Part shown: piece after piece, positions 1 through 16,500 of the stretch
Layout of the letters: each line of letters opens with the position of its first letter
Numbering within the stretch: the stretch's first letter is position 1
Origin: Chlorobiaceae bacterium
GTDB lineage: Bacteria; Bacteroidota; Chlorobiia; Chlorobiales; Chlorobiaceae
DNA length: 46,243 bases
Direction: 5' to 3'
NCBI GenBank assembly: GCA_013334755.1
Contig: JAAXWX010000014.1
Location: forward strand, 1 to 46,243
Made by a program: the position numbers and the translations under genes
Notes under the pieces: generated by a model
The model's database searches: none
The model's input: the letters and a program-made list of their open reading frames with translations, nothing else
What the model was told of the DNA's origin: nothing

Positions 1-108
1 ACAACAACAGCCAACGCTCTGACAAAACTCGGTGTCAAGGTCGATGTCATTCCTGAATCGTTTGACGGCCCCGGTTTTGCAAAAGCTATTGCAAAAGCAC
101 TGCTGTAG
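1..108 (+). CDS. hemD: Uroporphyrinogen-III synthase, C-terminal end (partial)
   Basis: Only the last 35 codons lie in the window; the reading frame is open from base 1 and stops at TAG 106-108. The tail has the usual HemD ending: a Thr-Ala-Asn-Ala-Leu helix start, then a Leu-Gly-Val-Lys-Val strand, a Pro-Glu-Ser turn and a final amphipathic helix ending KAIAKALL. HemD cyclises hydroxymethylbilane to uroporphyrinogen III, the common precursor of haem and bacteriochlorophylls. hemB lies 10 kb downstream on the same strand, and in Chlorobium hem genes are known to cluster, which supports the call. With so little sequence the name rests on pattern and context. Confidence 0.6.
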
Positions 109-138
109 ACGAAGGCTCCACACCGTATAACCATCCGG

Positions 139-741
139 TTACAGATCTTCAATATCCGGGATATCATCATTGATTGCAGAACTCAATTTGCATACAGAAG
201 CATCCGGAATATCATCGTCATCGCATTCAGAGGTTAATTTGCATTCCGACACATCCGGCAGGTCATCCTGGTCGAAAACAGGAACCACGATGAATTCCTC
301 TCTTTCTGACACTGTTCTTTCCGGTTGTGTTTTTTCCGACTGCGTCTGTTCAGAAAAAAGAAGCAACTGCCGTTCAGGTTCGTGAAATCCGGCTTCCGGT
401 TTATATTTGCCTGTCTGCTCTCCGTTTATGCCCTCTCCTTCAGGCTCTTCGACTGTTTTCTGTACGGAAGTGTATTTTCTGCGCCGGGAAGTAGTCTGAT
501 TATTCATTGCGCTGAACGAGTCCAGATTCTGTTCAAGTGTCTCCCTTACGGTTTCTTCAAGTTCCATCCGCATGGCATGCAGAAACTGCAGAGAGTCGGC
601 CCGGTGCTGGGCAAGCTCGCGGCGAAGGTCTTGTCCTGTTTTTTCAATTTCCTTCCGCTCTATGCCCGGCCAACCAGTCAGAATCATTGCAAGCAGTGCA
701 GCAAGCATTAAAAAAACAGCAATAAGCAGTGCGGTTGTCAT
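139..741 (-). CDS. Membrane-anchored acidic protein with C-terminal Asp/Cys repeats, function unknown
   Basis: A 200-residue protein that I do not recognise. Residues about 3-23 form one hydrophobic membrane segment. They are followed by a charged, probably coiled-coil region (about 28-75, rich in Glu, Arg, Leu and Gln) and a Glu/Gln/Lys-rich, low-complexity middle. The last 50 residues contain a degenerate repeat with the core D-D-[IL]-P-D-x-S-x-C-K-L-[TS]-S, present twice in full and once more as a truncated DDIPDIEDL at the C-terminus. The gene starts 10 bases after the hisN-like stop, so the two are probably co-transcribed. The architecture (one N-terminal anchor plus a coiled coil) is seen in DUF-type envelope proteins, but no function can be assigned. 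Confidence 0.6.
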   Translation of the reverse strand: MTTALLIAVFLMLAALLAMILTGWPGIERKEIEKTGQDLRRELAQHRADSLQFLHAMRMELEETVRETLEQNLDSFSAMNNQTTSRRRKYTSVQKTVEEPEGEGINGEQTGKYKPEAGFHEPERQLLLFSEQTQSEKTQPERTVSEREEFIVVPVFDQDDLPDVSECKLTSECDDDDIPDASVCKLSSAINDDIPDIEDL

Positions 742-750
742 GATGATTGG

Positions 751-1518
751 TTATACAGATTTTTCAATATCAGAAAGAAGCGCTGAACCTATCACCCTGT
801 TTGCGCTGACAAGCCCTTCTCCGGATATCGTTGTCTTTCCCTTATAATCAAAACAGCATCCCCCGGCTTCCGTCACGATTGGAATCAGTGCTGCACAATC
901 CCATGGGCTCATGATTTTATCGACTGAGACTTCTGCACGACCGGATGCAACGAGCATATGACCATAGCAGTCCCCCCATCCACGAACAAGAGCGGCTTTA
1001 TGGCGAAGCAGGTCGACAGGATGCTGAGATAACTGGTCGAGCAGATACTCTTTTTCCGTAAAGAGCACGGTTGCGTCCCTGACATCACTGATTGATGAGA
1101 CCGTTATCGGTGATCCGTTTAAAAATGCTCCGATTCCCCGTTCGGCATAATAAAGCTCTCTGAGCGCAGGAAAATGAACAACACCAAGGCTCACAGTTCC
1201 ATCTATCTCAAGAGCAATCATCACACCGTAAAGCGGCACACCGTGAATGAATGCCTTAGTGCCGTCAATTGGATCAATGATCCAGCGACGGTTGTTAGAA
1301 GATGGACGCTCTTCAAATTCTTCACCCAGCACTCCATCTTCAGGATTACGGGAGGTAATTGCGATACGGATCAGCTCTTCGGCTTTACGATCGGCTTCGG
1401 TAACCGGGGTTGCATCCCTTTTGGTGAACACCTGCAATGATTTACGGGAAAAGTAACTAAGGGTTAACTGCCCTGCCTGTTCGGCCAGTTCAATAGCAAG
1501 CTGAAGATCGGATGTCAT
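751..1518 (-). CDS. hisN: Inositol-monophosphatase-family phosphatase, probable histidinol-phosphatase
   Basis: The 255-residue length is typical for the Mg-dependent IMPase family. The metal-binding motifs are present in order: GEE (about 65-67), WIIDPIDGT (79-87) and SPWDCAALIP near residue 205. The glycine pair of the family (EAGG) follows the last motif. HisN-type members dephosphorylate L-histidinol phosphate, the penultimate step of histidine synthesis; relatives act on inositol phosphate, fructose-1,6-bisphosphate or adenosine-3',5'-bisphosphate (CysQ). The short N-terminal region and the spacing of the motifs look more like HisN than CysQ, but substrate choice cannot be settled from sequence alone. 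The gene heads a two-gene minus-strand unit with the unknown acidic protein. Confidence 0.7.
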   Translation of the reverse strand: MTSDLQLAIELAEQAGQLTLSYFSRKSLQVFTKRDATPVTEADRKAEELIRIAITSRNPEDGVLGEEFEERPSSNNRRWIIDPIDGTKAFIHGVPLYGVMIALEIDGTVSLGVVHFPALRELYYAERGIGAFLNGSPITVSSISDVRDATVLFTEKEYLLDQLSQHPVDLLRHKAALVRGWGDCYGHMLVASGRAEVSVDKIMSPWDCAALIPIVTEAGGCCFDYKGKTTISGEGLVSANRVIGSALLSDIEKSV

Positions 1519-1670
1519 GGTTTTCTCTATTCTTTTAATATCTTGTTGATCAAATTATTTAATGCCGAGTACTGGAAGGTCGCATCTACAGCATTCATGC
1601 TTAACCCCGGACAAACACCTGAAAAGAAACTGTCGCCCGGCAAGTTAGTTAATCAATATCGTAAAATACA

Positions 1671-3212
1671 ATGAAACGCTTGATTGCCGAACGCGAAAAA
1701 GCCCGACTTGGAGGTGGAGAAAAACGCATTGACTCACAGCATAAAAAAGGCAAGTTTACAGCTCGCGAACGCCTTAATCTCTTGCTTGACGAAGGCAGTT
1801 TTGAAGAATATGACATGTTTGTCACGCACAGGACAACTGATTTTGGCCTTGACAAGCAAAACTATCTTTCAGACGGTGTCATTACTGGTCACGGTACCAT
1901 TGATGGTCGTCTTGTCTATATTTTCTCTCAGGATTTTACCGTTCTTGGCGGTTCGCTTTCAGAAACCAACGCACTTAAAATCTGCAAGGTGATGGACCAG
2001 GCCATGAAAGTCGGCGCACCCTTCATCGGAATCAACGACAGTGGCGGGGCAAGAATCCAGGAAGGGGTAAGAAGTCTTTCCGGCTATGCAAGTATTTTCC
2101 AGAGAAACGTCATGGCATCGGGGGTCATTCCCCAGATATCGGCTATTTTCGGTCCATGTGCCGGCGGTGCGGTTTACTCCCCTGCGCTTACTGATTTCGT
2201 AGTCATGGTCGAAAAAACCAGTCATATGTTTGTCACTGGTCCAAAAGTTGTAAAAACCGTTACCGGAGAAACCATCACTGACGAGGATCTTGGAGGTGCT
2301 TCAGTTCATGCAACAAAATCAGGAGTCACCCATTTTGTAGGCGCGGATGAAACTGAAGGAATCCTGCTGATAAAAAAGCTGCTCAGTTACCTGCCACAAA
2401 ACAATCTTGAAGAACCACCTCTTGCTGTTTGTGACGATCCAGCCGATCGCCTTGACGACAAACTGAACTCCATCATACCCGAAAAGCCATCCATTCCTTA
2501 CGACGTCAAGGATATTATCTATTCGATTGCCGATAACGGAGAGTTCCTCGAAGTTCAGCGGCAATATGCCAGAAACATTGTTATCGGTTTTGTCACCTTC
2601 AACGGCATCTCTACCGGTATAGTCGCCAACCAGCCCAACTACCTTGCCGGTTGTCTTGACATCAACGCATCCTGCAAGGCTGCAAGATTTGTACGATTCT
2701 GCGACGCCTTCAACATTCCCATCGTCACCCTTGTGGATGTTCCCGGTTTCCTTCCCGGCAGTGCTCAGGAATTTGACGGCATTATCACTAACGGTGCAAA
2801 ACTGATTTTTGCCTATGCAGAAGCCACCGTGCCGAAAATCACCATCATCCTGCGAAAAGCATATGGAGGAGCATACATCGTCATGAGCTCCAAGCAGCTG
2901 CGCGGTGATGTCAATTATGCATGGCCGACGGCAGAAATAGCTGTCATGGGCCCGATAGGCGCCATTGAGGTACTCTTCAACAGGGATCTGAATGCCATTG
3001 AAGATCTGGAAGAACGTGCCCGGTTTGTAGCTGAAAATGCAGCGGAGTATCGTGAAAAGTTCTCCAATCCCTATGAAGCGGCGAAATTCGGATATATTGA
3101 CGATATCATCGAACCGCGCAATACCCGTTTCAGGATCATTCGCGCCCTTCAGACGCTCTTGACAAAAAAAGATAACAATCCTCCCAAAAAGCACTCGACC
3201 ATACCATTGTAA
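1671..3212 (+). CDS. mmdA: Methylmalonyl-CoA decarboxylase / propionyl-CoA carboxylase carboxyltransferase subunit
   Basis: A 513-residue carboxyltransferase of the acyl-CoA carboxylase beta (12S/MmdA/PccB) family with both crotonase-like halves. Visible family marks are [10 protein letters not shown] near residue 30, GGSLSE (about 93), the oxyanion loops [10 protein letters not shown] and [13 protein letters not shown] in the N-domain, and [23 protein letters not shown] and [11 protein letters not shown] in the C-domain. The ATG at 1671 is the first start after an in-frame TAA (1662-1664); no Shine-Dalgarno is evident. It transfers a carboxyl group between an acyl-CoA and biotin. The three following genes (membrane gamma, biotin carrier, integral beta) form a Na+-pumping decarboxylase, so methylmalonyl-CoA decarboxylation is the likelier role. 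Part of the set could instead serve a cytosolic propionyl-CoA carboxylase. Confidence 0.85.
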
Positions 3213-3225
3213 ACGGAAAAAAAAT

Positions 3226-3603
3226 ATGACATCGATCATTCAATATTTTCCGGTCAATCTCTCGGAGATTCACAGTCAACATGTGGTAATGGCTGTAACA
3301 GGATACAGTATTGTCTTTCTCTCTTTCTTCCTGCTCGCACTGCTCTTCAGCGTGATACCGAAGTTCCTCTCCTGGAATATCAGAAGAACATTTGACGATG
3401 AGGGTGACAAAGTAAAAAAAGCCCTGGCAGGAAACATGATTCCCGGAGAGGTCAGTGCTGCTATCAGTATGGCAATCTCGCTCTATCTCGATGAGCTTCA
3501 CGATCAGGAAAATGCAATTCTGACTATCAGGAAAGTGGGAAAAACCTACTCACCCTGGAATTCAAAAATTTACAATGTCATTAATACTAACCGTTTTCAA
3601 TGA
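3226..3603 (+). CDS. Sodium-pumping decarboxylase gamma subunit (OadG-like)
   Basis: A 125-residue protein with one strong membrane segment (about residues 22-45: VTGYSIVFLSFFLLALLF), followed by a polar cytoplasmic tail rich in charged residues. This is the layout of OadG/MmdD subunits, which tether the carboxyltransferase and biotin carrier to the beta subunit. Sequence conservation in this family is low, so the call leans on size, topology and position between mmdA and the biotin carrier gene. It starts 13 bases after mmdA, and its stop codon overlaps the next start in an ATGA arrangement (3600-3603), which points to translational coupling. The C-terminal half (YLDELHDQENAILTIRKVG) looks like the membrane-distal part of fused OadG-type proteins. 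Confidence 0.7.
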   Translation: MTSIIQYFPVNLSEIHSQHVVMAVTGYSIVFLSFFLLALLFSVIPKFLSWNIRRTFDDEGDKVKKALAGNMIPGEVSAAISMAISLYLDELHDQENAILTIRKVGKTYSPWNSKIYNVINTNRFQ

Positions 3604-4019
3604 TGAGACGATATAAATTCACAATAAGCGGCAACAAATATAACGTCGAAATTAAATCTCTCGAAGAAAACATTGCCGAAATAGAGGTAAATGGTACATC
3701 CTATCAGGTTGAGTTGGGTCAGGAAATCAAAACACCGCAAACACCGAAACTTGTACGATATACCCCTCCAGCACCGCCAAAAGCGCCAATACTCAATACA
3801 CCAGGCTTGAGCATGATCAAGGCCCCTCTTCCAGGCACGATTATTGCAATCTCAGTCAAACCCGGCATGCAGATAAAACTGGAACAACCAGTACTTGTTC
3901 TTGAAGCCATGAAAATGGAAAACAATATTTTTGCAGAAAAAGCCGGTACCGTCAAGACTGTCAGGGTAGCGGTAGGCGATACAGTCATGCAGGGTGATAT
4001 CCTGATAGAAATTGAATAA
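3600..4019 (+). CDS. mmdC: Biotin carboxyl carrier protein of the decarboxylase
   Basis: A 139-residue biotinyl/lipoyl-domain protein. Residues 1-40 resemble the N-terminal beta region of OadA/PycA tails, residues 45-75 are a Pro/Ala-rich hinge, and the C-terminal 70 residues are the biotinyl domain with the biotinylation motif VLEAMKMEN (lysine between the two methionines) about 35 residues from the end. It carries CO2 between the carboxyltransferase and the membrane beta subunit. The start ATG overlaps the preceding stop; a second ATG follows directly at 3603, so the first residue is uncertain by one codon. It lies in an operon with mmdA and the beta subunit. Confidence 0.88.
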   Translation: MMRRYKFTISGNKYNVEIKSLEENIAEIEVNGTSYQVELGQEIKTPQTPKLVRYTPPAPPKAPILNTPGLSMIKAPLPGTIIAISVKPGMQIKLEQPVLVLEAMKMENNIFAEKAGTVKTVRVAVGDTVMQGDILIEIE

Positions 4020-4026
4020 CACCATT

Positions 4027-5163
4027 ATGGACGGACTTATGCAGCTTTACGGGTATTCCGGTTTTGCAAATGCAACTCCGGGGCACCTTTTGATGATTCT
4101 TGTCGGAATGGTTTTCATCTACATAGCCATCCGCTTTGAATATCAACCAATTCTTCTGGTTCCGATCGGTTTCGGCATCCTGATCGGCAATACCCCGTTT
4201 ATCGAGCATGGCGGAATGGCGCTGGGCATCTATCAGGATGGCAGTGTTTTGAACTACCTTTACCAGGGAGTACTCAAAGGGATTTTTCCTCCCCTGATTT
4301 TTCTCGGAATCGGAGCCATGACCGATTTTTCGCCGCTTATTTCAAATCCAAAGCTTATCCTGCTCGGAGCCGCGGCACAGCTTGGCATTTTCATGACCTA
4401 TCTCGGTGCTATCTCTCTCGGCTTCACCAATACCGAATCAGCTTCAATAGGCATAATCGGCGGTGCTGATGGCCCGACAGCAATCTTCCTCTCCTCCCGG
4501 CTTGCTCCGCATCTCGTAGGCTCCATAGCTATTGCCGCGTATACCTATATGGCTCTTGTCCCCCTTATTCAGCCACCGATCATGCGCCTGTTAACCACCC
4601 AAAAAGAGCGTAGAATCAAAATGAAACCGCCTCGTTCAGTTACCAAAATCGAAAAAGTCATTTTTCCCGTATTCGGCCTGCTCCTGACCGGATTTATCGC
4701 TCCCGGATCCCTGCCTCTTCTTGGTATGCTTTTTCTTGGCAATCTGCTCAAGGAATCAATGGTCACAAAAAGGCTTGCTGATACTGCAAAAAATGCCATG
4801 ATAGACATTGTCACCATCATTCTTGGCGTTACTATCGGAGCTTCAACACAAGCGACAACATTTCTGACTCACAGTTCCGTGCTTATTTTCATTCTTGGTG
4901 CGACTGCATTCATGTTCTCAACAGCCGGCGGAATCCTTTTTGCAAAGTTCATGAACCTTTTTCTTTCCGAGGAGAACAAAATCAACCCGCTGATCGGTGC
5001 AGCAGGTGTTGCAGCTGTGCCGGAAAGCGCCCGTGTCGCCCAGTTAGAGGGGCTGAAAGCCGATCCGACCAATCACCTGATTGTGCATGCCATGGCTCCG
5101 AATGTTGCCGGAACAATCGGGTCAGCCATTGCCGCCGGTATTATGATGAGTTTTTTACTGTAA
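4027..5163 (+). CDS. mmdB: Sodium-pumping decarboxylase beta subunit (OadB/MmdB family)
   Basis: A 378-residue integral membrane protein with about nine to eleven hydrophobic segments. It has the family signatures GGADGPTAIFLSS near residue 155, whose Asp lies in the Na+ and proton path of OadB, and AGVAAVPESARVAQ near residue 320. The beta subunit decarboxylates carboxybiotin and uses the energy to export Na+. I take the ATG at 4027, 7 bases after the biotin-carrier stop; an in-frame TTG at 4012 would overlap the upstream gene by 8 bases and adds only five residues. It is the last gene of the mmdA-gamma-mmdC-mmdB unit and faces the convergent kinase operon across a 209-base gap that holds two hairpins. 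Confidence 0.88.
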   Translation: MDGLMQLYGYSGFANATPGHLLMILVGMVFIYIAIRFEYQPILLVPIGFGILIGNTPFIEHGGMALGIYQDGSVLNYLYQGVLKGIFPPLIFLGIGAMTDFSPLISNPKLILLGAAAQLGIFMTYLGAISLGFTNTESASIGIIGGADGPTAIFLSSRLAPHLVGSIAIAAYTYMALVPLIQPPIMRLLTTQKERRIKMKPPRSVTKIEKVIFPVFGLLLTGFIAPGSLPLLGMLFLGNLLKESMVTKRLADTAKNAMIDIVTIILGVTIGASTQATTFLTHSSVLIFILGATAFMFSTAGGILFAKFMNLFLSEENKINPLIGAAGVAAVPESARVAQLEGLKADPTNHLIVHAMAPNVAGTIGSAIAAGIMMSFLL

Positions 5164-5226
5164 AGCAGATTTTTCCGGCACAGGATCCACCCCTTTGAAT
5201 TGAATCGGAGTTATCGTCTTCATATA

Positions 5227-5250
5227 CCGTCAGTTACTGGTAACTGACGG
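5227..5250. terminator. Perfect 24-base hairpin between convergent genes
   Basis: Arms CCGTCAGTTA and TAACTGACGG pair over 10 bases around a CTGG loop. It lies 64 bases past the mmdB stop and about 120 bases past the stop of the opposing kinase gene, where a bidirectional terminator is expected. The T-run is poor on either strand (plus strand continues TTCATG), so it may act as a Rho-assisted 3' end or an RNA-stability hairpin. Confidence 0.45.
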
Positions 5251-5293
5251 TTCATGCTGAACCGGGTTACTTTTTCTGCTTTTCAGATTATAT

Positions 5294-5312
5294 AATTCAG
5301 TAACACTGAATT
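5294..5312. other. Second small hairpin in the convergent gap
   Basis: AATTCAGT and ACTGAATT form an 8-base stem with a 3-base loop (AAC). It repeats the CAGTAAC/GTTACTG word found in the stronger hairpin at 5227-5250. It lies 60 bases past the kinase stop and may be part of that operon's 3' end. No T-run follows on either strand. Confidence 0.3.
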
Positions 5313-5372
5313 CAAGCAAATCCGGATCACGCTATAACGTCAACGGCTCAGTGACTCTGCAGGATATCTGAA

Positions 5373-7481
5373 TCAGTTATGCTTATGTATTAATTTCTCC
5401 AAAGATGCGATTTTTTCGAAAAGCAACATATTGTCGACCGGTTTGACGATATAATCATTCATCCCGCATTGCATTGCCTGTTTAACCGTTTCATTATCTG
5501 AATCACCGCTCAAACCGATGATTGGAATGTTTCTGTAGTCATGTTTTCCAGAACGGATGCGCTTTGCAGCTTCAATACCGTCAAGAACCGGCATCTGAAT
5601 ATCCATAAGCAGCAGATTGCAATGATGGTTTTCCAGAATATCAAGAGCTTCCTGTCCGTTTGATGCCTCCATCACTGTTACTCGCAGCTTCTGCAGCATT
5701 GTTCTTATGATCATACGGTTGACAGCCGAATCATCAACAACAAGCAGCGTCTTACCGGCAAGTGATCCTTGCAGAGCAGTAGAGTTTTTCTGAATAGATG
5801 CTGAAAGCGCCTGCAAAAGCTCCGGAAGAACTATAGGCATTGAAAGTAACCCGTGTATACCTGACTTTTCAGCACGAGCCCGAAGAACATAAGAGGGGGC
5901 CTGGGTATATGCAACAACGGGCAGATGTTTACCGTTGCTCCTGATCTTGTATGCAAGCTGGTAGACATCAAGACCAGAACGATCAAGATTTGCAAGAAGA
6001 AGATCATACCTGCCCGAATCAATCATCTGCATTGCCTCAGCAAAACTGGATGCTTCGTCAGTATCGACTCCAAGTGGCATAAGATAACTGCGGAACAGTG
6101 CATGATTCTCAGTATCATCATCGACAAGCAGAAACCTCTTCCCTGAAAACAGCGTCCGGTTATCAATATAGAGTTGTGCCTCATAGTCAGCAATTTCATT
6201 TTCACCAAGCACGGGGAAACTCAATACAAATTCGGTAAACTCGCCATGCACTGAATTGCAAATGATATCACCGCCAAATGAACGCATAACTCGTTTGCAG
6301 AAAGCAAGGCCGAGTCCTGTGCCCCCTTTTCTTCCTGAGGTAAAAAACGGGTCGAAAAGCTTACCGATATTTTCCTTTGAAACACCTGGACCGGTATCCC
6401 TGACAAAAACCTTGTTCTGGGTTTCACCGCGCTGCAAATGAATATCGATACAACCATCGGGAAAAGAGCGGAGAAAATAGAGAGCATTCAAGACCAGGTT
6501 GAAAAGCACAAAGATATACATGTTCTCGGCACCCAGAAACATAAAATCTTCACCTTCCCGAAAATGCACTCGTGCACGCTCCTCATCCGACTCATAACTG
6601 TATTCATCAAGTGCCTTGCGTGTTACAGCGGCTACGGAAAGAAAGGCAAACCCTTTTTTCATCGACGATTGCTCTTTGACCTCCTCAAGAATCATTTCAA
6701 TAACCTGTATGCCCCGGTTAACCGCCAGTTGACCATTTGCAACACTTTGATAGATTCTTTCTATTCCTCCCGAAGTAACCTGTGTAAACATCCTGTCGGG
6801 ATGATAGAGCGGTAGTTCCTGCTGGATAGCATCAAAATTATAACGGATCTGACCCAGAGGATTGCGCATCTCATGAGCAATACCACCCGCCAGAGCTTGA
6901 AGGGCATTGTTTCTTTCCTGGGCCATCAAACCTCTTTTATTGCTGTAGCTGAAACCATACCCGGCGATGATGGTAAAAAACAGCACCAGAAAATAGAGCG
7001 GCTGATTGAAAGTCGGATGAAGTTCGACGTGAGGAACCGAGAGAAAATAAAACAGGATCGCCCCGGCGACACCGATTATCAGGTCAATTAAAAAAATCAG
7101 CCAGTTTGGAACAAATGATATCAGCACAAACAGCATGAATATTTCCCAGTACAGCCAGAGCTCATGAAAGTTGTTCATGATGAGATTAACCGTAAAAATA
7201 AAGGGAAGAACAAAAATGAGAATAAAATGCCAGTAGTAAGTAAAAAAGGTATTGGGAACGCCGGTACTGACCAGTTTTTCTTTAAACAACATTGACAGAC
7301 AAAGCAGTGTTGCCGTCATACGAAGAAAAACATTCTCATAAGGAAGATGAAATCCGTACTTGAAAATGAAATAAAAAAAGAAATGAGCCGGCGCTCCAAG
7401 CAAGGCAGCAGCAAGCGAATTGAAGCGAGATATCTGAGTACCTTCATTTATACTATGCCGTATATAGGAGAACAGCTTCAA
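5373..7481 (-). CDS. Hybrid sensor histidine kinase, CqsS-like, six TM segments and two receiver domains
   Basis: 702 residues from the TTG at 7481; that start overlaps the upstream stop as TTGA and has a GGGGGTG stretch about 8 bases before it. An ATG at 7511 would add ten residues and a 34-base overlap. Order: six hydrophobic segments (about 20-170) with hardly any extracytoplasmic loop; HisKA with the H-box GGIAHEMRNPLGQI (His203); HATPase_c with RDTGPGV and GGTGLGLAF; a first receiver (about 448-560); a second receiver (about 577-690) with VVDD, phospho-acceptor Asp627 in LLLMDIQMP and YIVKPV. In the first receiver the phospho-Asp is Asn498 and the switch Lys is Met548, so it is a pseudo-receiver. 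The membrane part, H-box and tail recall Vibrio CqsS, the CAI-1 autoinducer sensor, as I remember that sequence. Last gene of the AfsA-like operon. Confidence 0.85.
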   Translation of the reverse strand: MKLFSYIRHSINEGTQISRFNSLAAALLGAPAHFFFYFIFKYGFHLPYENVFLRMTATLLCLSMLFKEKLVSTGVPNTFFTYYWHFILIFVLPFIFTVNLIMNNFHELWLYWEIFMLFVLISFVPNWLIFLIDLIIGVAGAILFYFLSVPHVELHPTFNQPLYFLVLFFTIIAGYGFSYSNKRGLMAQERNNALQALAGGIAHEMRNPLGQIRYNFDAIQQELPLYHPDRMFTQVTSGGIERIYQSVANGQLAVNRGIQVIEMILEEVKEQSSMKKGFAFLSVAAVTRKALDEYSYESDEERARVHFREGEDFMFLGAENMYIFVLFNLVLNALYFLRSFPDGCIDIHLQRGETQNKVFVRDTGPGVSKENIGKLFDPFFTSGRKGGTGLGLAFCKRVMRSFGGDIICNSVHGEFTEFVLSFPVLGENEIADYEAQLYIDNRTLFSGKRFLLVDDDTENHALFRSYLMPLGVDTDEASSFAEAMQMIDSGRYDLLLANLDRSGLDVYQLAYKIRSNGKHLPVVAYTQAPSYVLRARAEKSGIHGLLSMPIVLPELLQALSASIQKNSTALQGSLAGKTLLVVDDSAVNRMIIRTMLQKLRVTVMEASNGQEALDILENHHCNLLLMDIQMPVLDGIEAAKRIRSGKHDYRNIPIIGLSGDSDNETVKQAMQCGMNDYIVKPVDNMLLFEKIASLEKLIHKHN

Positions 7482-8791
7482 TCTACACCCCCAAGTAATT
7501 TCTCGACACATTCATCCGCAGCCCTGAAACAGGCCTCGATGGATGCTCCCCGACGGTAGTCACCAGTTGCACCAAAACCGGCAAAAGGTTCAAGTTTTTT
7601 ATCGATATCCCGAAGCAGCCGGTGATGCATCGGCGAATATGCGCACAAACCTTCTTCTATATACCGGTATGCGAAAGACTCTCTTGTATTGTCATGTATA
7701 TTAAAGTAAGGCCCGGCAATCTGCTCTCCAAGTGCGACGACATCTTCAGGCTTTGTGCTCTTTGAAACAACAGATCTCGAAACCCTGCCGCTGAATGTAT
7801 AGCGAACAAGGTCCAGATCGTTGATACCGTATGCCCCTGCATTGCTCAAGGGGAAAGAGTGATCGAACACCATGGCCCGCTGCGACTGCTGGAAAACATC
7901 CCGGGCGTATTTCACAATAGCGACAGCTACCGGGTAATACCGTACTCTGCGAAGCAGAGCTGCAGCTTCAGGAAGAAGCCCTTCAAACAGAATACTCAGC
8001 CGGCCCGCCGGAAGTGCAGATATAACCCTGTCATAACCTGCCGATTCCTGGACACCCCCTTGCTGATAGCCGACCATGATAGCGCCTGTTCCCGGATCAC
8101 GTGAAACAGAAGTTACCCTGTGACCTGTAATAATTCTGAGCAAACCAGTTCCGGAGAAGGCCTGAAACGCATCAAGCATTCCATGCATTCCGCTTTTTAA
8201 CTGTTCATAACTGTCAAGGACAAGAGCCAGATTTGAACCGAAATTTCCTAGATAACACTCATCAGGCTCCGCGCCGTTCATACGTACCGTGACCGGCCTT
8301 ACGACATGACTTAGACAAGGCTCTTGCAAATAGCCGGCAAGTGAAAGATGATCATACTGCTCTGCAAGCCTGTTGAAATAATCGCTGTTGAGCACTCCCA
8401 TCCTGCGATCCTTCATAATTGCCCGGACATGGGGATACAGCTTCCTGATACCGTCAAAACCGCATAATCCGATAAACCGGATAGTATTCAAGAGTTTCGC
8501 CCCTTCCTTGTTTATCCTTACAACACGCCCATCGATCATCTGCGACGTATTGAACCCGAAATATTCATAGTCATGAACACCACATTTCTGCACAAAGTCG
8601 CGGAACAACAGATAATTTTTACCAATATTTTTACCTCCAAAATCAAGCCAGCGACCAAGAAGCTGTTCGCTGCCAATCCTGCCACCGATTCGCTCTTCGG
8701 ATTCATAGAGGTCTACCTCAATATTGCGTTGTGTCAGAAAAAATGCTGAAGCAATCCCTGATATCCCGCCACCAATGACTGCAACCCTCAT
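7478..8791 (-). CDS. FAD-dependent amine-oxidase-fold oxidoreductase
   Basis: 437 residues. The N-terminal dinucleotide-binding motif VAVIGGGISGIASAFFL (3-19) is followed by an acidic ribose-binding residue (DLYESEERIGGRIGS), the hallmark of the flavin amine oxidase/protoporphyrinogen oxidase fold. The C-terminus has the second FAD contact, GDYRRGASIEACFRAADE, in the usual place. The substrate-binding middle (KLYPHVRAIMKDRRM, NSDYFNRLAEQYDHLSL) does not let me name the substrate. It is sandwiched between the AfsA-like gene (TAATG overlap, one base, at 8791) and the kinase (4-base overlap), so it is very likely translationally coupled to both. By context it could modify the product of the AfsA-like enzyme. 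A haem or carotenoid role is the alternative. Confidence 0.8.
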   Translation of the reverse strand: MRVAVIGGGISGIASAFFLTQRNIEVDLYESEERIGGRIGSEQLLGRWLDFGGKNIGKNYLLFRDFVQKCGVHDYEYFGFNTSQMIDGRVVRINKEGAKLLNTIRFIGLCGFDGIRKLYPHVRAIMKDRRMGVLNSDYFNRLAEQYDHLSLAGYLQEPCLSHVVRPVTVRMNGAEPDECYLGNFGSNLALVLDSYEQLKSGMHGMLDAFQAFSGTGLLRIITGHRVTSVSRDPGTGAIMVGYQQGGVQESAGYDRVISALPAGRLSILFEGLLPEAAALLRRVRYYPVAVAIVKYARDVFQQSQRAMVFDHSFPLSNAGAYGINDLDLVRYTFSGRVSRSVVSKSTKPEDVVALGEQIAGPYFNIHDNTRESFAYRYIEEGLCAYSPMHHRLLRDIDKKLEPFAGFGATGDYRRGASIEACFRAADECVEKLLGGVD

Positions 8792-9783
8792 TATCTGGTC
8801 GCATCCTCTTCAACAAACTTGCTGACTTTTGCTTTAAACTGCATTTGACTTCTTGATGATATTTTCTCAATCCGCTCTCTCTGCTGCTGGTAACGCTTGC
8901 TGCTCATGTAAGCAAAAGCATTCAGCGTGGCCTCAGCGCAAACCTTGCCCCACTGCATGACCTGAATATAGACCGGTGCTTCCTTGTCTTCGCTTGTTTC
9001 ATCCGCACTAAAACCGCAGTATGCTCTCAGTATAATGGGTGCACCCGACTCAAGGTAATGAAAAAAATTCGTATTGTATTTTAAAAGTCCAAGTCCCCCA
9101 TCAAAGGATAAGCCCTGAAGATGCGCAGTAGTAATAGCTGCCTGCCTCAGCGCTTCAAGCATAAGCATTCCCTGGACATGGTCAGATACATGGTCGAAAC
9201 TCAGCTCTTCAGTTTCTTCAAGCATGTTGAAATGGTGCAGCCGTCCGGAGGTAAAGACTTCTGAAATCAAAACATTGGCATCATTTTTTTTATGCACATA
9301 TTTTTTATCCATCAACCCGGGTAAACTGTCTTCCATTGTCAAGGCAAGTGGACTCCTGACCAGGCTTTTCAGATCGAGAGGCAGCTTTTTCATCAGTTTG
9401 GCGGCCGTCTCAATATCAAATGGTGGCGTACCCTTTAAGGAGGGGTAGGAAAGTGATTTGAGTAAAGCATACACACCGGGATTGGCTATGCGAAAGTCCG
9501 GAGAAATAAAAATTTCACATGCTTCGCCGAGGAGCATAAGAAAAAGGGAGACTTCATCGACTGATTCGACATTGACAACCTGAAGAGCTCCTGCCTGAAA
9601 AGGCAGCTTGTCCCCGTCGAAAAGAAGCGTATAAGGCTTTCTGCCGGGGTTGAGGGTAAGAACGCCATGATCCTTTCTCGGTCTTCTGAAATTTCTCTGT
9701 ATCGGAAGCCGCACAATCGGAGAAGGATAGGCGGTTGTCCGCAACTTGTGGACAAGCGAGATATTTACTGATTGTTTGAACAT
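8791..9783 (-). CDS. AfsA-like hotdog-domain protein (A-factor biosynthesis family)
   Basis: 330 residues. The C-terminal half (about 170-305) matches the AfsA repeat. FDHVSDHVQGMLMLEALRQA at 197-216 parallels the NDHVPGMLLLEAARQAA motif of Streptomyces AfsA, and NFFHYLESGAPIILRAY after it parallels the second conserved block (HYSEFGSP). AfsA joins a beta-keto acyl chain to dihydroxyacetone phosphate, the first committed step to gamma-butyrolactone signals. Residues 1-165 are unlike AfsA and unrecognised, so this is a one-hotdog variant with a new N-terminal part. The start at 9783 has a good Shine-Dalgarno (CTGGAGTGAT, GGAG about 7 bases before ATG). First gene of a three-gene operon with the FAD enzyme and CqsS-like kinase. 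The real product is unknown. Confidence 0.75.
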   Translation of the reverse strand: MFKQSVNISLVHKLRTTAYPSPIVRLPIQRNFRRPRKDHGVLTLNPGRKPYTLLFDGDKLPFQAGALQVVNVESVDEVSLFLMLLGEACEIFISPDFRIANPGVYALLKSLSYPSLKGTPPFDIETAAKLMKKLPLDLKSLVRSPLALTMEDSLPGLMDKKYVHKKNDANVLISEVFTSGRLHHFNMLEETEELSFDHVSDHVQGMLMLEALRQAAITTAHLQGLSFDGGLGLLKYNTNFFHYLESGAPIILRAYCGFSADETSEDKEAPVYIQVMQWGKVCAEATLNAFAYMSSKRYQQQRERIEKISSRSQMQFKAKVSKFVEEDATR

Positions 9784-11182
<1,399 letters not shown>

Positions 11183-11216
11183 GCCTCTCTCTGAAAGAGT
11201 TATCCAATTCAAAAAG

Positions 11217-11250
11217 CCCGGCTGTAAAGTTCAGATAGCAGCCGGGTATT
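11217..11250 (+). terminator. Hairpin between hemB and aroC
   Basis: CCCGGCTG (11217-11224) pairs with CAGCCGGG (11239-11246) over 8 GC-rich bases with a 14-base loop, followed by TATTCTACT. The weak T-run suggests partial termination or attenuation between hemB and aroC, whose start is only 19 bases past the stem. Confidence 0.5.
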
Positions 11251-11265
11251 CTACTGTATAAAAAC

Positions 11266-12459
11266 ATGATACGATACTTTACGGCAGGTGAATCACATGG
11301 ACCGGCACTTTCTGCAATAGTGGAAGGCATGCCTGCAGGAATCTTCGTCACACCTGAGGAGATCAACAAACAGTTAGCCCGCCGTCAGCAAGGACATGGC
11401 CGGGGTGGACGCATGAAAATCGAGACCGACAAGGCAGAGATACTCTCAGGCATCAGATTTGGGAAAACAATCGGTTCACCAATTTCCATGGTGATCAGAA
11501 ACAGGGACTGGGAAAACTGGACAACCACCATGTCCCAATTTGAGAAACCTGATAAAACGTGTGCGAAAATCACCATTCCAAGACCAGGCCATGCCGACCT
11601 GGCTGGACGCATCAAATATGGCTTTGACGATATCCGTCCTGTTATTGAACGCTCATCAGCACGAGAAACTGCAGCCAGAGTTGCCGCTGGAACACTTTCA
11701 AGAGTCTTTCTCAAGGCTCTTGGCATTGAAATCGGCAGTTACATCTCGGCAATCGGATCGGCTGCAGAATCTTCTCCTGATAAACAACTTGCACTACTCC
11801 TCAGAGAAGGAGCTGAAGCCGTCGCAACACAGGCCGATCTTTCGCCGGTACGCATGCTCCAAAAAACAACTGAAGCACAAGCTCTTGCGGCCATAGATGC
11901 AGCAAGTGAACGTGGAGATACCCTTGGTGGAATCATTGAAATTTTTATTACCGGAGTACCTCCGGGCTTTGGCAGCTATGTTCAGCACGACAGACGTCTC
12001 GATGCCGCACTCGCAGCAGCGATCATCTCCATTCAGGCTATCAAGGGAGTTGAAATCGGTACCGCTTTTGAAAACGCAGGAAAACCAGGCTCAGAGGTAC
12101 ACGATGAATTTTACCTCTCTCGGGAAGAAGGTGTTTTCAGAAAAACAAACCGGTCCGGCGGACTTGAAGGAAGCATGTCAAGCGGACAAACCATTCACCT
12201 CAGGGCGGCCATGAAACCTATCTCCTCTCTGGTGACTCCCCTGCAATCCTTTGATATTGAAACCCTACAGCCAACACCATCACGATTTGAGCGCAGCGAC
12301 ACCTGCGCGGTACCTGCTGCAGGGGTAGTTACCGAAGCTGTTCTTGCACCGGTAATCGCCAATGCACTGCTTGAAAAGCTCGGTGGTGATCATCTTGATG
12401 AAATCCGACAGAGACTTGATCTTTATCGGGAGAACCTCCGTAAGACATTTCGTGCTTAA
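11266..12459 (+). CDS. aroC: Chorismate synthase
   Basis: 397 residues. Converts EPSP to chorismate with reduced FMN as cofactor, the last step of the shikimate pathway. All three signatures are present: GESHGPALSAIVEGMPAG at residues 8-25, the RPGHADLAG loop, and RSSARETAARVAAG with the catalytic His-Arg context. The SRFERSDTCAVPAAGVV block stands near the C-terminus as expected. The start ATG at 11266 (MIRYFTAGESHG) is standard for the family. Its stop overlaps the stop of the opposing cysE by 4 bases (12456-12459), so the two transcripts converge without room for a terminator. Confidence 0.96.
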   Translation: MIRYFTAGESHGPALSAIVEGMPAGIFVTPEEINKQLARRQQGHGRGGRMKIETDKAEILSGIRFGKTIGSPISMVIRNRDWENWTTTMSQFEKPDKTCAKITIPRPGHADLAGRIKYGFDDIRPVIERSSARETAARVAAGTLSRVFLKALGIEIGSYISAIGSAAESSPDKQLALLLREGAEAVATQADLSPVRMLQKTTEAQALAAIDAASERGDTLGGIIEIFITGVPPGFGSYVQHDRRLDAALAAAIISIQAIKGVEIGTAFENAGKPGSEVHDEFYLSREEGVFRKTNRSGGLEGSMSSGQTIHLRAAMKPISSLVTPLQSFDIETLQPTPSRFERSDTCAVPAAGVVTEAVLAPVIANALLEKLGGDHLDEIRQRLDLYRENLRKTFRA

Positions 12460-13268
12460 CCCTTTGTGAGACCCTCTTTACCGGTCATGAACACCATCTG
12501 GTTCATATCAAGAGAGGGCTCCGATACCTCGGTTTTACCAACAATCCGGGCTGGAACTCCAACAACTGTATAATGGGGCGGAACATCATCAAGCACGACG
12601 CTCCCGGCTCCAATCTTTGCACCCTCACCGATCACCACGTTACCAAGTATTTTGGCTCCAGCTCCGATCATCACCCACTTTTTCACTTTCGGATGACGGT
12701 CGCCACTCTCTTTTCCTGTGCCGCCAAGAGTGACTTCATGCAAAATGGATACATTATCATCAACCACGGCGGTCTCTCCAATAACAAGGCTGGTAGCATG
12801 GTCAAGAAAAATTCCCTTTCCGATTACTGCTGCCGGATGAATATCGACTGCAAAAACCTCTGACATGCGGTTCTGGATAAAATAGGCCATGGTTTTACGT
12901 CCGTTTTTCCAGAGCCAGTGCTCCATTCGATAGCTCTGCAACGCCTGATACCCCTTCAGAAACAGCATGATCTCGAAATAGTGCACCGCTGCCGGATCAC
13001 GCTGCTTGGTGGCGATAAGGTCATAAGCTGCATACTCAACAGCTTCGGGACAATGAACGTAAAAATCCTCAAAAAGCCCCTGTAATACCAAGGGCGGGAA
13101 ATGCTTCGAAGCGAGCTTCACCGACAAAAGCATTGCCAATGACGCACCGAAATCACCAAAGCGCAAAATATGCTGCTCTAAATAAATCCTGATTTGTGGG
13201 TCACAATTGCACTCATTGGCAGCTTCTGTGACAATCGTTGACCAGATTTGCTTGATGTCTTTTTCCAT
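12456..13268 (-). CDS. cysE: Serine O-acetyltransferase
   Basis: 270 residues. Acetylates serine with acetyl-CoA to give O-acetylserine, the cysteine precursor. The N-terminal helical domain (1-140) precedes a left-handed beta-helix of hexapeptide repeats (about 143-235). Active-site marks are LDHATSLVIGETAVV and LGGTGKESGDRHPKV (both catalytic histidines), followed by VMIGAGAKILGNVVIGEGAKI. The C-terminal extension after VVGVPARIVGK is about 25 residues and ends in a short polar tail. In classic CysE the C-terminal peptide binds the next enzyme (CysK) by a terminal Ile; here the protein ends Lys-Gly, so that contact is not obvious. Start ATG at 13268. Confidence 0.93.
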   Translation of the reverse strand: MEKDIKQIWSTIVTEAANECNCDPQIRIYLEQHILRFGDFGASLAMLLSVKLASKHFPPLVLQGLFEDFYVHCPEAVEYAAYDLIATKQRDPAAVHYFEIMLFLKGYQALQSYRMEHWLWKNGRKTMAYFIQNRMSEVFAVDIHPAAVIGKGIFLDHATSLVIGETAVVDDNVSILHEVTLGGTGKESGDRHPKVKKWVMIGAGAKILGNVVIGEGAKIGAGSVVLDDVPPHYTVVGVPARIVGKTEVSEPSLDMNQMVFMTGKEGLTKG

Positions 13269-13555
13269 ACGGATCCAGTACTCAGTAAATGGATATTCCG
13301 GATAACTTTATCCGCTGCTGTAACATAAGCGCCAGACAAGCCAAAAGCTACAGCATTAATAAAAAATTAAACTCATTATGTATCAAAACCGTAAACAGAA
13401 ACCTGTTAAAATGAGAAGATAACGTTTGCCTCTAAGACAGATTTCAACAATGAAACGAAAAATATTCCACGTGTTTTTTTTTATTTTTACGTAAATATTT
13501 TGTAATTATAGTATAAAAATCACTTTAATAATACCGTAACCACACGATCATTTCG
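13269..13555. other. AT-rich intergenic region upstream of the exoprotein gene
   Basis: 287 bases between divergent cysE and the exoprotein gene. The right half is very AT-rich, with a palindrome TTTACGTAAA at 13486-13495 followed by TTATAGTATAAAAATC, which could hold a -10 element for the exoprotein. No gene or clear -35 is seen. Confidence 0.4.
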
Positions 13556-16500
13556 ATGAATAATGTCTGTCGGTTTTTTGGCAGCAATACCAGAGATCCC
13601 TTGATCGCCACAGCTGTTGTTACACTCATGTTATTTGCCGGATTCAGGGCTTTTGCGCTGCCTGTCAACGGACAGGTGGAAGCTGGGAAGGCCGCCATCA
13701 ACACACCTTCGGCAAATGAAATACACGTCGAACAGACAAGCAACCATGCCATCATCAACTGGAGTTCCTTTGGAATCGGCAAGGATGAATCAGTCAAAAT
13801 AATCCAGCCGTCAACCCGCTCCATCATGCTCAACAGGGTTTTGGGTAATGATCCTTCTGAAATATTCGGAGCACTAACGGCCAATGGTCGTCTCTTTCTG
13901 TTAAATCCGAACGGCATACTGTTTGCACCAAGTGCCACTGTAAACGTTGGAGGGTTGGTAGCATCAAGCATGTCGATAAGAGACAACGACTTCCTCTCGG
14001 AAAAATATACCTTCTTCCGGAACAACGCGAAAGGTTCTATAGTGAACCAGGGCTCATTGAGCGGTGGATTTATAGCTCTGCTCGGTAACAGCACAACGAA
14101 CACCGGCAAAATTGTAACCACCGGGGGAACAACAGGAATGGCCGCTGGAGAACAAATTGCCCTCAACATTGACCCTTCCGGTCTGGTCGCGATCAAAGTG
14201 GAGCAGGCTGCATATAATGCGCAGATAATGAACAGTGGAGTGATCGAAGCTGATGGCGGCACGGTGATCATGAGCACCTCGGCAGCCGATGCTCTGCTTG
14301 CATCGGTCGTTAATAACAGCGGCAAGATACGTGCAGTGAGCATGACGGAATGCGACGGCACCATAAAAATCGAAGGCGGTACAATCATCAATACCGGTAC
14401 TTTCCATGCATACGACATCGACGTCATAGGAAACAACCTTGTCGATGCTGGGGCATGGAATGCTTCCGAAATCAAAAGAGGGGGGACTATACAAATTGAC
14501 GTAACGGGCAGCATTGAGCAAACCGCTGCAAGCATGATGACGGCCGATGGTGCTGATGGTGGCCATATCCACATCAATGCAGGAAAGGGCCTTTACCTTT
14601 CCGGAACACTCAGTGCAAATGGATGTGACGGATCGGGCGGAGAGATCGCCATCACTGCGCCGGTAACCCTTCTCGCCGGAACTCATGTAACCACTGATGG
14701 GCAGAGAGGAGGGGGAAGCATTCTTGTTGGGGGTGGCTGGCAGGGCAAGGATAGCGATATCGTCAATGCTGAAACCACCATTGCAACGAGCAGCAGCAGG
14801 GTGAGCGCAAATGCACTTGACAACGGAAACGGGGGCACAGTGGTATTCTGGTCAGAGCACTCCACTACATTTGCCGGTATCGCTGAGGCAAAAGGGGGAA
14901 TGAACAACGGCAACGGTGGGCAGGTCGAACTATCCAGCCATGAAAACCTCACCTTCTCAGGGCAGGTTGAAACGAGCTCACCCAATGGCAAAAACGGCAG
15001 TCTATTGCTTGACCCGAGAAATATCACCATTGATGCCAATACATCTACTTCACCTCCTCTTTTCTTTCTCATTTCGTTGCCAGATGCAAATCCTGCACCT
15101 GGTGACCAGCATAGCTACGGAAACATCATTGAACTGAGCAACGGCAATATTATCGTGGCCAGTCCTTTAGACGATTTCGTCGCAACTGATGCCGGAGCTG
15201 TAAGGCTTTTTAAGCCCAATGGTACCTTGCTGTCAATGCTTTGCGGTTCTTCTGCCAATGACCAGGCAGGTGAATATGTTACCACTCTGATCGGCAATAC
15301 CAATGCAGTCACGTTGACACATGAATGGTCAAACTCAGGAAAGGATGGTGCCGGTGCAGTAACATGGATAGATGGAACCAAGGGCATCAGCGGGAGCATC
15401 TCCTATACAAACAGCCTGGTCGGTTCAACAACAAATGATGGTTCCTCCTCCCAAGTCATCACTCTTACGAACGGCAACTATGTGGTCAGTTCACCAGACT
15501 GGGATAATGATTCATCCTCTGATGCCGGAGCCGTAACATGGGGAAATGGCCTCGGCGGCACAGCAGGAGCAATCAGTACAATCAATAGTCTGGTGGGTTC
15601 TAAAAATAACGATCATGTCGGGAGTGTGACTGCACTGAACAACGGCAATTATGTTGTCTCATCTCCCTTGTGGGACAAGGAAAAAATTACCAATGCAGGT
15701 GCTGTGACCTGGGGAAGCGGAGACGGTCACACCGTCGGAATGATATCTGCCAGTAATAGTCTGGTGGGTTCTAAAACTGGAGATCAGGTTGGCAGCGTCA
15801 CTGCTCTGACCAATGGTAATTATGTTGTCAGTGCGCCAAATTGGGATAACGGTAAAATCACTAATGCCGGTGTGGTAACCCTTTTAAATGGGCTCAACGG
15901 TGCTGTCGGAACAATAAATGCTGCAAAAAGCCTGGTTGGTTCAAAAAAAGAGGATAAGGTTGGAAGCAAGGTAACAGCACTTGCCAACGGCAATTATGTC
16001 GTTATTTCTCCGGCATGGGATAATTTTACTGTAATCGATGCGGGAGCGGTTACATGGGGGGATGGCGTCAACGGTACAGTCGGGATAATCAGAACAACAA
16101 ACAGCTTGACTGGTTCTACTGGTAATGATTTTGCATCATCGTATGTTACAGCCCTGACAAATGGAAATTATGTTGTCATATCCCCGGCCTGGGACAATCT
16201 TTCAGCCAAAGACGCGGGTGCAGTGACATGGGGTAATGGAGCAAGCGGGACTCCTGTAGGAACAATAACGACGAAAAACAGCCTTGTTGGCTCTATGAAC
16301 GATGATGGCATTACCTCAACAGTGACCGCACTTGCCAATGGTAATTATGTTGTAGGTTGGCCACATTGGGATAATGAACAGATGAGCGACACGGGTGCAG
16401 TGACATGGGGGAACGGGTTGGAAGGCACTGTCGGAGTAATCAGCACTTCCAACAGCCTGATCGGCTCCACAGCTAATGACGGTCGTCGCTATAACATAAC

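Follow-up and report, generated by a model that had tools for sequence, protein, structure and literature searches.

Does a Chlorobiaceae bacterium encode the enzymes for a signal and the receptor for it side by side? The question is raised by three overlapping minus-strand genes on contig JAAXWX010000014.1 (GenBank assembly GCA_013334755.1), lying at positions 9783 to 5373 of the window, i.e. the whole stretch of 46,243 nucleotides that was analysed. They encode an AfsA-family protein, a flavin adenine dinucleotide (FAD) enzyme and a hybrid sensor histidine kinase with a CqsS-type membrane sensor, and are referred to below as the trio. A preliminary description had read them as an operon for synthesis and sensing of a signal. 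This reading is supported here, and the three genes very probably form a self-contained signal-and-receptor cassette.

Comparison with related genomes points further, with a probability that we put at about 70%, to a plug-in quorum-sensing slot, in which a conserved kinase transmitter would be combined with exchangeable pairs of synthase and sensor (AfsA with the FAD enzyme, CqsA, or a methyltransferase) and in which AfsA and the FAD enzyme would make a new class of acyl-derived autoinducer. Handles of genomes (G; the source genome is G000), loci (L) and contigs (C) are given in brackets where needed.

Exchange of synthases and sensor domains

In the second of the two genera compared, 21 genomes were sampled, and 19 of them carry a cassette at the same syntenic position, with neighbours common on one or both sides. 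The site holds the trio in 12 genomes, CqsA with a trio-type kinase in four and a methyltransferase with a kinase in three; two second-genus genomes (G022 and G034) lack all three synthases. By eye, the neighbours resemble OmpA-like, lpxD, ribose-phosphate pyrophosphokinase and ribosomal L25 genes, and one further neighbour encodes a CaMKII_AD/SnoaL-like protein. In the first genus, the trio sits between oadB and hemB. Of the 29 sampled first-genus genomes that lack the trio, 12 were checked at this site: oadB directly adjoins hemB in seven (L189-L194, L196), another gene separates them in three (L197, L198, L200), oadB is at the expected place with the hemB frame called on the other strand in L199, and L195 has a different neighbour and a contig end.

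A kinase tree was calculated from 84 sensor kinases, where six shorter than 400 amino acids were dropped and three outgroup rows added, giving 81 rows; it is a quick tree with long-branch warnings. Separate domain trees were based on 42 rows of the clade of trio and methyltransferase kinases, of which 40 (sensor), 42 (core) and 41 (receivers, REC) passed the gap limit. In the sensor tree, all seven methyltransferase-partnered kinases form one clade together with three synthase-less ones (support 100/99). In the core and REC trees, by contrast, the three such kinases from the second genus nest within a group of 23 local rows, of which 12 are partnered with AfsA (100/100).

Approximately unbiased (AU) tests rejected the second-genus rows as one clade on the sensor data (p 2e-64), and the methyltransferase-type sensors as one clade on the core (p 2e-7) and receiver data (p 1e-74). 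Along the second-genus methyltransferase kinases, identity is methyltransferase-type at first and local further on, the change falling roughly between residues 120 and 210. Judged from these sequences, a methyltransferase and its sensor domain came in jointly, the latter joining a transmitter already in place, at least once, and the places in the core tree suggest that this happened perhaps twice. Such a joint exchange is the strongest evidence that what the sensor domain detects is made by the enzyme encoded next to it. Replacement of AfsA and the FAD enzyme by CqsA or the methyltransferase at one site, with an exchanged sensor in the methyltransferase case, is also stronger evidence than that of the preliminary description. 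A further mosaic was seen in three AfsA-partnered kinases of the first genus (G003, G015 and G041), which group with the methyltransferase-type kinases in the core (95/97) and receiver trees (98/94) and not in the sensor tree.

Covariation was evaluated on 20 of the 24 trios, leaving out L032 (short AfsA frame), L026 (broken kinase start), and L035 and L044 (no full kinase). AfsA distances tracked those of the sensor given core and receivers (partial r 0.57, p 0.0002), and did not track those of the core given sensor and receivers (partial r -0.08, p 0.79).

Distribution and co-occurrence

The AfsA family (PF03756) was detected in 23 of the 61 sampled Chlorobiaceae genomes; a phylum-wide sample of 394 genomes yielded 27 with it, without exception Chlorobiaceae. 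A profile of the FAD enzyme (E <= 1e-60) recovered exactly the same 23 of 61 genomes, and the FAD gene adjoins the AfsA gene in 28 of 28 cases (24 wide loci and four more, L069-L072). Identical genome sets and constant adjacency speak against chance neighbours, and the trio genes are not scattered among relatives, which the preliminary description had allowed for. The kinase comes after this gene pair in all 24 wide loci, with its first part only on the contig in G018 and G035. Two tandem trios and a third kinase were seen in G030 (L037).

The trio was found in Chlorobium ferrooxidans and in assemblies labelled Chlorobaculum parvum and Pelodictyon luteolum. A contig scan with patterns derived from Chlorobiaceae returned 22 loci, all Chlorobiaceae by title, and is no evidence on absence elsewhere.

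The CqsS-type sensor was present in 36 of the 61 genomes, and 35 of these hold at least one of AfsA with the FAD enzyme, CqsA or the methyltransferase; 24 of the 25 sensor-less genomes are without any of the three (Fisher p 1e-14). In G014, the trio kinase is the sole match to the sensor profile. CqsA scored above its cut-off in 22 of 61 genomes and the methyltransferase was found in eight; G043, G039, G049 and G055 have a kinase like that of the methyltransferase locus and no methyltransferase match. Broken or interrupted genes were observed for the methyltransferase in G012 (L108), the start of the trio kinase in G008 (L026) and CqsA in G056 (contig C47).

Four kinases with a CqsS-type sensor were identified in the source genome. 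One is that of the trio, one lies by CqsA and an NtrC-family regulator, one by a methyltransferase, and one has no synthase identified alongside. The CqsA, a homologue of which had been suggested as worth looking for, scored 629 bits (NCBIfam cut-off 428) and is encoded on contig C94 beside its own kinase; cqsA is absent at the trio locus. In Vibrio campbellii, CqsA is encoded alongside CqsS and is 52% identical to Chlorobium CqsA; since the Vibrio record is unannotated, the names CqsA and CqsS there derive from this match together with the NCBIfam assignment of Chlorobium CqsA. That the Chlorobiaceae sensors are homologous to CqsS, whose Vibrio locus holds CqsA, counts for a signal cassette.

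The AfsA-family protein

The proposed hotdog similarity to AfsA was borne out by a significant match to Pfam AfsA (PF03756, E 2.2e-38, 131.7 bits, cut-off 24) over residues 162-290, the sole match to this family in the genome. Residues D197, H198, H202, E210 and R213 are invariant in 24 of 24 aligned sequences. The AlphaFold model (mean predicted local distance difference test, pLDDT, 82.6) contains a single hotdog domain. Its best fold match was a FabZ (Z 12.3, root-mean-square deviation, rmsd, 3.0, 127 residues), thioesterase folds were also matched, and only hotdog proteins were found among the matches listed for the whole model. A sequence search of the PDB with the AfsA profile gave no match.

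An extra, unrecognised N-terminal stretch of about 165 residues had been pointed out before. The first 160 or so residues indeed match no Pfam or NCBIfam family at the curated cut-off, and the picture can be refined: apart from their first part they are conserved within the family (24-sequence alignment), and they are modelled as folded from about residue 41.

Against the ScbA/BarX equivalog NF041195 (NCBIfam), the protein scored 50.3 bits, below the cut-off of 200. In profile comparison with five Streptomyces ScbA proteins, residues 152-282 aligned with the second ScbA hotdog (probability 97, E 1.1e-10), E210 and R213 being the counterparts of ExxRQ in that domain, and nothing aligned to the first. 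ScbA and BarX are defined by two tandem hotdogs with ETxRQ in the first; here, one PF03756 stretch was found and the first-domain motif is absent. By sequence the protein is thus assigned to the AfsA family without being an ScbA, and a butyrolactone product is therefore not to be assumed. On plasmids, no match was obtained at 1e-6, and the 19 records up to E 0.1 are all from Streptomyces.

The FAD enzyme

The amine-oxidase fold proposed for the second protein was confirmed by a match to Amino_oxidase (PF01593, E 3.4e-23) and by a model with the fold of protoporphyrinogen oxidase (PPO) and monoamine oxidase (mean pLDDT 80.8; other four models 62.7-75.0). The best match in a PDB fold search was Myxococcus PPO (Z 32.7, rmsd 2.9, 379 residues). 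Scores against the PPO families stayed below their cut-offs (TIGR00562, 42 and 38.6 bits, cut-off 97.85; NF008841, 72.2 bits, cut-off 517). Across the genome, nothing reaches the TIGR00562 cut-off: the top score is 45.9 bits, for a gene on another contig, with the trio FAD gene second at 38.6, so that the PPO of the genome was not pinpointed. Because 38 of 61 genomes lack the enzyme and its scores are below the PPO cut-offs, a role in a core pathway of haem, carotenoid or other pigment synthesis, which the preliminary description had named as the case that would speak against it, appears unlikely.

The sensor kinase

Pfam content of the kinase comprises HATPase_c and two Response_reg stretches, with HisKA below the cut-off (20.8 vs 26.9 bits). 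Hydropathy segments were found at residues 22-40, 48-66, 84-102, 107-125, 128-146 and 162-180, where 48-66 appears solely at the lower threshold; this fits six predicted membrane passes and is consistent with the six-pass hybrid kinase first described. In the HisKA-HATPase core, H203 and N332 are invariant in 24 of 24 kinases. The phosphoacceptor position of the first receiver (REC1) is degenerate (D 15, N 5, E 3, G 1; n=24), and the second (REC2) is intact, with D583, D584, D627, S658 and K680 invariant in all 24.

A CqsS-like membrane part had also been proposed, and a profile of 15 trio-type sensors aligned with V. campbellii CqsS accordingly (hhalign probability 97.4, E 1.2e-11, 170 columns, 21% identity); against a CqsS set including Chlorobium members, E was 1.2e-21. 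The double receiver, cited as a further likeness, turned out to be a difference, as V. campbellii CqsS has one receiver and the trio kinase two. Against the LuxN equivalog NF041945, the kinase scored 293.5 bits (cut-off 1550), with the best stretch at residues 187-527. A PDB sequence search with the sensor profile gave no match.

F175 is reported to be the chain-length residue of V. harveyi CqsS (PMC3285556). Taken as V. campbellii residue 175, it aligns with F177 of the trio kinase, invariant in 24 kinases, which may serve as a hint, and as a hint only, of a short-tailed ligand.

Evaluation of the proposed mechanism and its alternatives

In the mechanism that we propose, the AfsA hotdog would condense or transfer a medium-chain acyl or beta-ketoacyl group, bound to acyl carrier protein or coenzyme A, to a small acceptor; the product would then be oxidised by the FAD enzyme to the final small hydrophobic signal. 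The CqsS-type domain would sense this signal at the membrane and thereby shift the HisKA-HATPase core between its kinase and phosphatase activities; phosphate would pass via REC2 to a regulator.

A number of observations weigh against the proposed signal-and-receptor cassette. The main one concerns strict pairing: the sensors of the four kinases next to CqsA at the common second-genus site are still of the AfsA type (100/98), where the receptor may have been retuned, or the products may be alike, or the sensor may read something else. In 29 of the 81 rows of the kinase tree, no synthase was identified alongside, partly due to contig ends; G046 has a sensor and no member of the three synthase types, and G037 has CqsA without a sensor. 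The clades used in the AU tests were named after the trees had been seen, and the Fisher probability ignores kinship. AfsA distances also weakly track those of the receivers (partial r 0.23, p 0.024). In addition, sensor and AfsA are closer together on the DNA than core and AfsA, so linkage alone could raise the correlation between AfsA and sensor. On the output side, no linked response regulator accompanies the trio, and HPt domains of the source genome occur solely inside two other kinases; when 13 chosen genomes were checked with PF01627, five were without HPt, four of these being trio genomes.

It is conceivable, and in our view unlikely, that the kinase senses another cue (membrane state, redox or a foreign signal) and controls AfsA and the FAD enzyme, which would make an ordinary metabolite or a modified lipid. 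Kinase genes commonly adjoin their target genes, no ligand is known, and the AfsA-type sensors beside CqsA would fit such a regulator. However, homologous sensors in the same genomes and in Vibrio CqsS adjoin CqsA, which belongs to an autoinducer synthase family, and it was the sensor domain, not the transmitter, that was exchanged along with the methyltransferase. Quenching or tuning of a signal by AfsA and the FAD enzyme, e.g. of the product of a CqsA elsewhere in the genome, with the kinase reporting its level, is considered quite improbable: CqsA is present in all 11 sampled first-genus trio genomes, which speaks for it, but in just one of the 12 second-genus trio genomes (G020), so the trio there is mostly without CqsA, and at the shared site the trio takes the place of CqsA.

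The Chlorobiaceae make haem and bacteriochlorophyll, and the FAD enzyme could in principle act in haem, bacteriochlorophyll or carotenoid synthesis and be a neighbour by chance, given that its top fold matches are protoporphyrinogen oxidases, that hemB lies next door in the window and that no other gene was pinpointed as the PPO. To this we attach next to no weight, as the FAD gene is present exactly where AfsA is, its scores fall below the PPO cut-offs, hemB stays put in trio-less genomes and the second-genus trios are at another site. An operon for making and sensing a signal is hence the reading retained, the similarities to AfsA and CqsS being significant, the trio genes co-occurring and the FAD enzyme probably standing apart from the core pigment pathways.

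A LuxO partner is considered unlikely, the NtrC-family regulator by the CqsA locus scoring 358 of the 800 bits of the LuxO cut-off, and no LuxU or LuxO partner for the trio kinase was found in the source genome.

Comparison with known systems

The trio resembles Vibrio CqsA/CqsS in having a homologous membrane sensor on a HisKA-HATPase-REC kinase that is encoded beside a synthase, and differs in having AfsA and the FAD enzyme for CqsA, overlapping genes on the same strand and an extra degenerate receiver. LqsA/LqsS is a further system of the CqsA/CqsS kind. With Streptomyces AfsA/ScbA, the trio shares an AfsA hotdog with a FDHxxDHxxGMxxLEAxRQA-type motif; unlike ScbA, it has one hotdog rather than two, an unrelated N-terminal region and a FAD partner, and the place of the ScbR-family receptor gene, found in four of five ScbA regions, is taken by a membrane kinase. 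No TetR-type butyrolactone receptor was recognised by eye in the neighbouring frames, where no TetR profile search was run.

PhcB/PhcS of Ralstonia is a methyltransferase-kinase pair, and the Chlorobiaceae methyltransferase likewise adjoins the same kind of kinase; this likeness is a lead only. Identity of the methyltransferase as PhcB was not confirmed, the NCBIfam and Pfam matches being generic. On plasmids it matched 104 records, 97 of them Rhizobium, with 26-27% identity in the best 25 of 104. A plasmid of Paraburkholderia caribensis (L073, 8921-12562 +) carries a beta-ketoacyl synthase III gene directly upstream of a kinase with a homologous sensor (30.5%, E 1e-15 to the trio-type sensor). 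Here the synthase is of another family, and this is the only such case found.

The preliminary description knew of no such trio and of no quorum sensing through it in green sulfur bacteria. The first part stands, in that no description of AfsA paired with a CqsS-type kinase was found in the open-licence literature; as to the second, two publications already report CqsA/CqsS homologues in Chlorobiaceae (PMC5289986, PMC10158934), and the CAI-1 system is the only one that the 2023 genome study gives for green sulfur bacteria (PMC10158934). Homologues of butyrolactone clusters are said to span 12 phyla (cited in PMC12114271).

If the proposal is true, the trio would be a second signalling system of green sulfur bacteria, in 23 of the 61 sampled Chlorobiaceae genomes, and the methyltransferase-kinase pair (8/61) looks like a third. 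An AfsA enzyme would then feed a membrane kinase, rather than make a butyrolactone sensed by a DNA-binding repressor, and the kinases with exchanged sensors would amount to a natural domain-swap experiment on the co-evolution of signal and receptor.

Locus features and neighbouring genes

Features of the trio and of the other sensor loci of the source genome are listed in Table 1. The layout first described, of three minus-strand genes with overlaps of one and four bases, agrees with the frames and the junction sequences, TAATG between genes 1 and 2 and TTGA between genes 2 and 3. GGAG precedes the AfsA gene and GGGGG the kinase gene; for the TTG start of the latter (702 amino acids), there is an alternative ATG frame of 712 amino acids from 7511.

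Table 1. Coordinates of the trio in the window and of further CqsS-type sensor loci in the source genome (G000); L105 covers positions 1-17000 of its contig
Feature	Location	Position	Strand	Evidence
AfsA-family protein, 330 amino acids, proposed first signal enzyme	window	8791..9783	-	PF03756 E 2.2e-38; 24-sequence alignment
AfsA single hotdog domain, residues 162-290	window	8914..9300	-	Pfam, alignment, AlphaFold model, fold matches
AfsA N-terminal region, residues 41-160, without family match	window	9304..9663	-	alignment, model, profile comparison
FAD enzyme, PPO/monoamine-oxidase fold, 437 amino acids, proposed tailoring enzyme	window	7478..8791	-	PF01593 E 3.4e-23; model; PDB fold search
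Hybrid sensor histidine kinase, 702 amino acids, TTG start	window	5373..7481	-	open reading frame, Pfam, alignment
CqsS-type membrane sensor domain, residues 1-181	window	6939..7481	-	hhalign to V. campbellii CqsS; hydropathy
Kinase HisKA and HATPase_c, residues 194-424	window	6210..6902	-	Pfam, alignment
Degenerate receiver REC1, about residues 449-556 (limits inferred from alignment)	window	5814..6137	-	Pfam, alignment
Intact receiver REC2, residues 580-691	window	5409..5744	-	Pfam, alignment
Intergenic region, trio to divergent hemB	window	9784..10183	.	open reading frame list, sigma-54 scan
CqsA	L105, contig C94	8485-9738	+	
CqsS-type kinase (two receivers and HPt)	L105, contig C94	5359-7899	-	
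NtrC-family regulator	L105, contig C94	2993-4456	-	
Methyltransferase, possible third signalling pair with the following	L104, contig C48	926-1792	-	
Trio-like kinase	L104, contig C48	2087-4243	-	
CqsS-type kinase with HPt, no synthase identified alongside	L106, contig C92	2656-5343	-	

No convincing sigma-54 site was found in the 300 bases scanned of the region between the trio and hemB, and the best sigma-54-like candidates before 22 trio operons still had 3 to 5 mismatches. Downstream of the trio kinase in L040, a gene for a GH15/DUF547 protein was observed (13843-16509 +), and relatives of this gene occupy the corresponding position in several genomes of the second genus, with shortened or fragmented versions in G014 and G008. 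Elsewhere in the window (13556-18343 +), a protein of 1595 amino acids is encoded whose start resembles, by eye, a filamentous-haemagglutinin secretion domain and is followed by many similar repeats.

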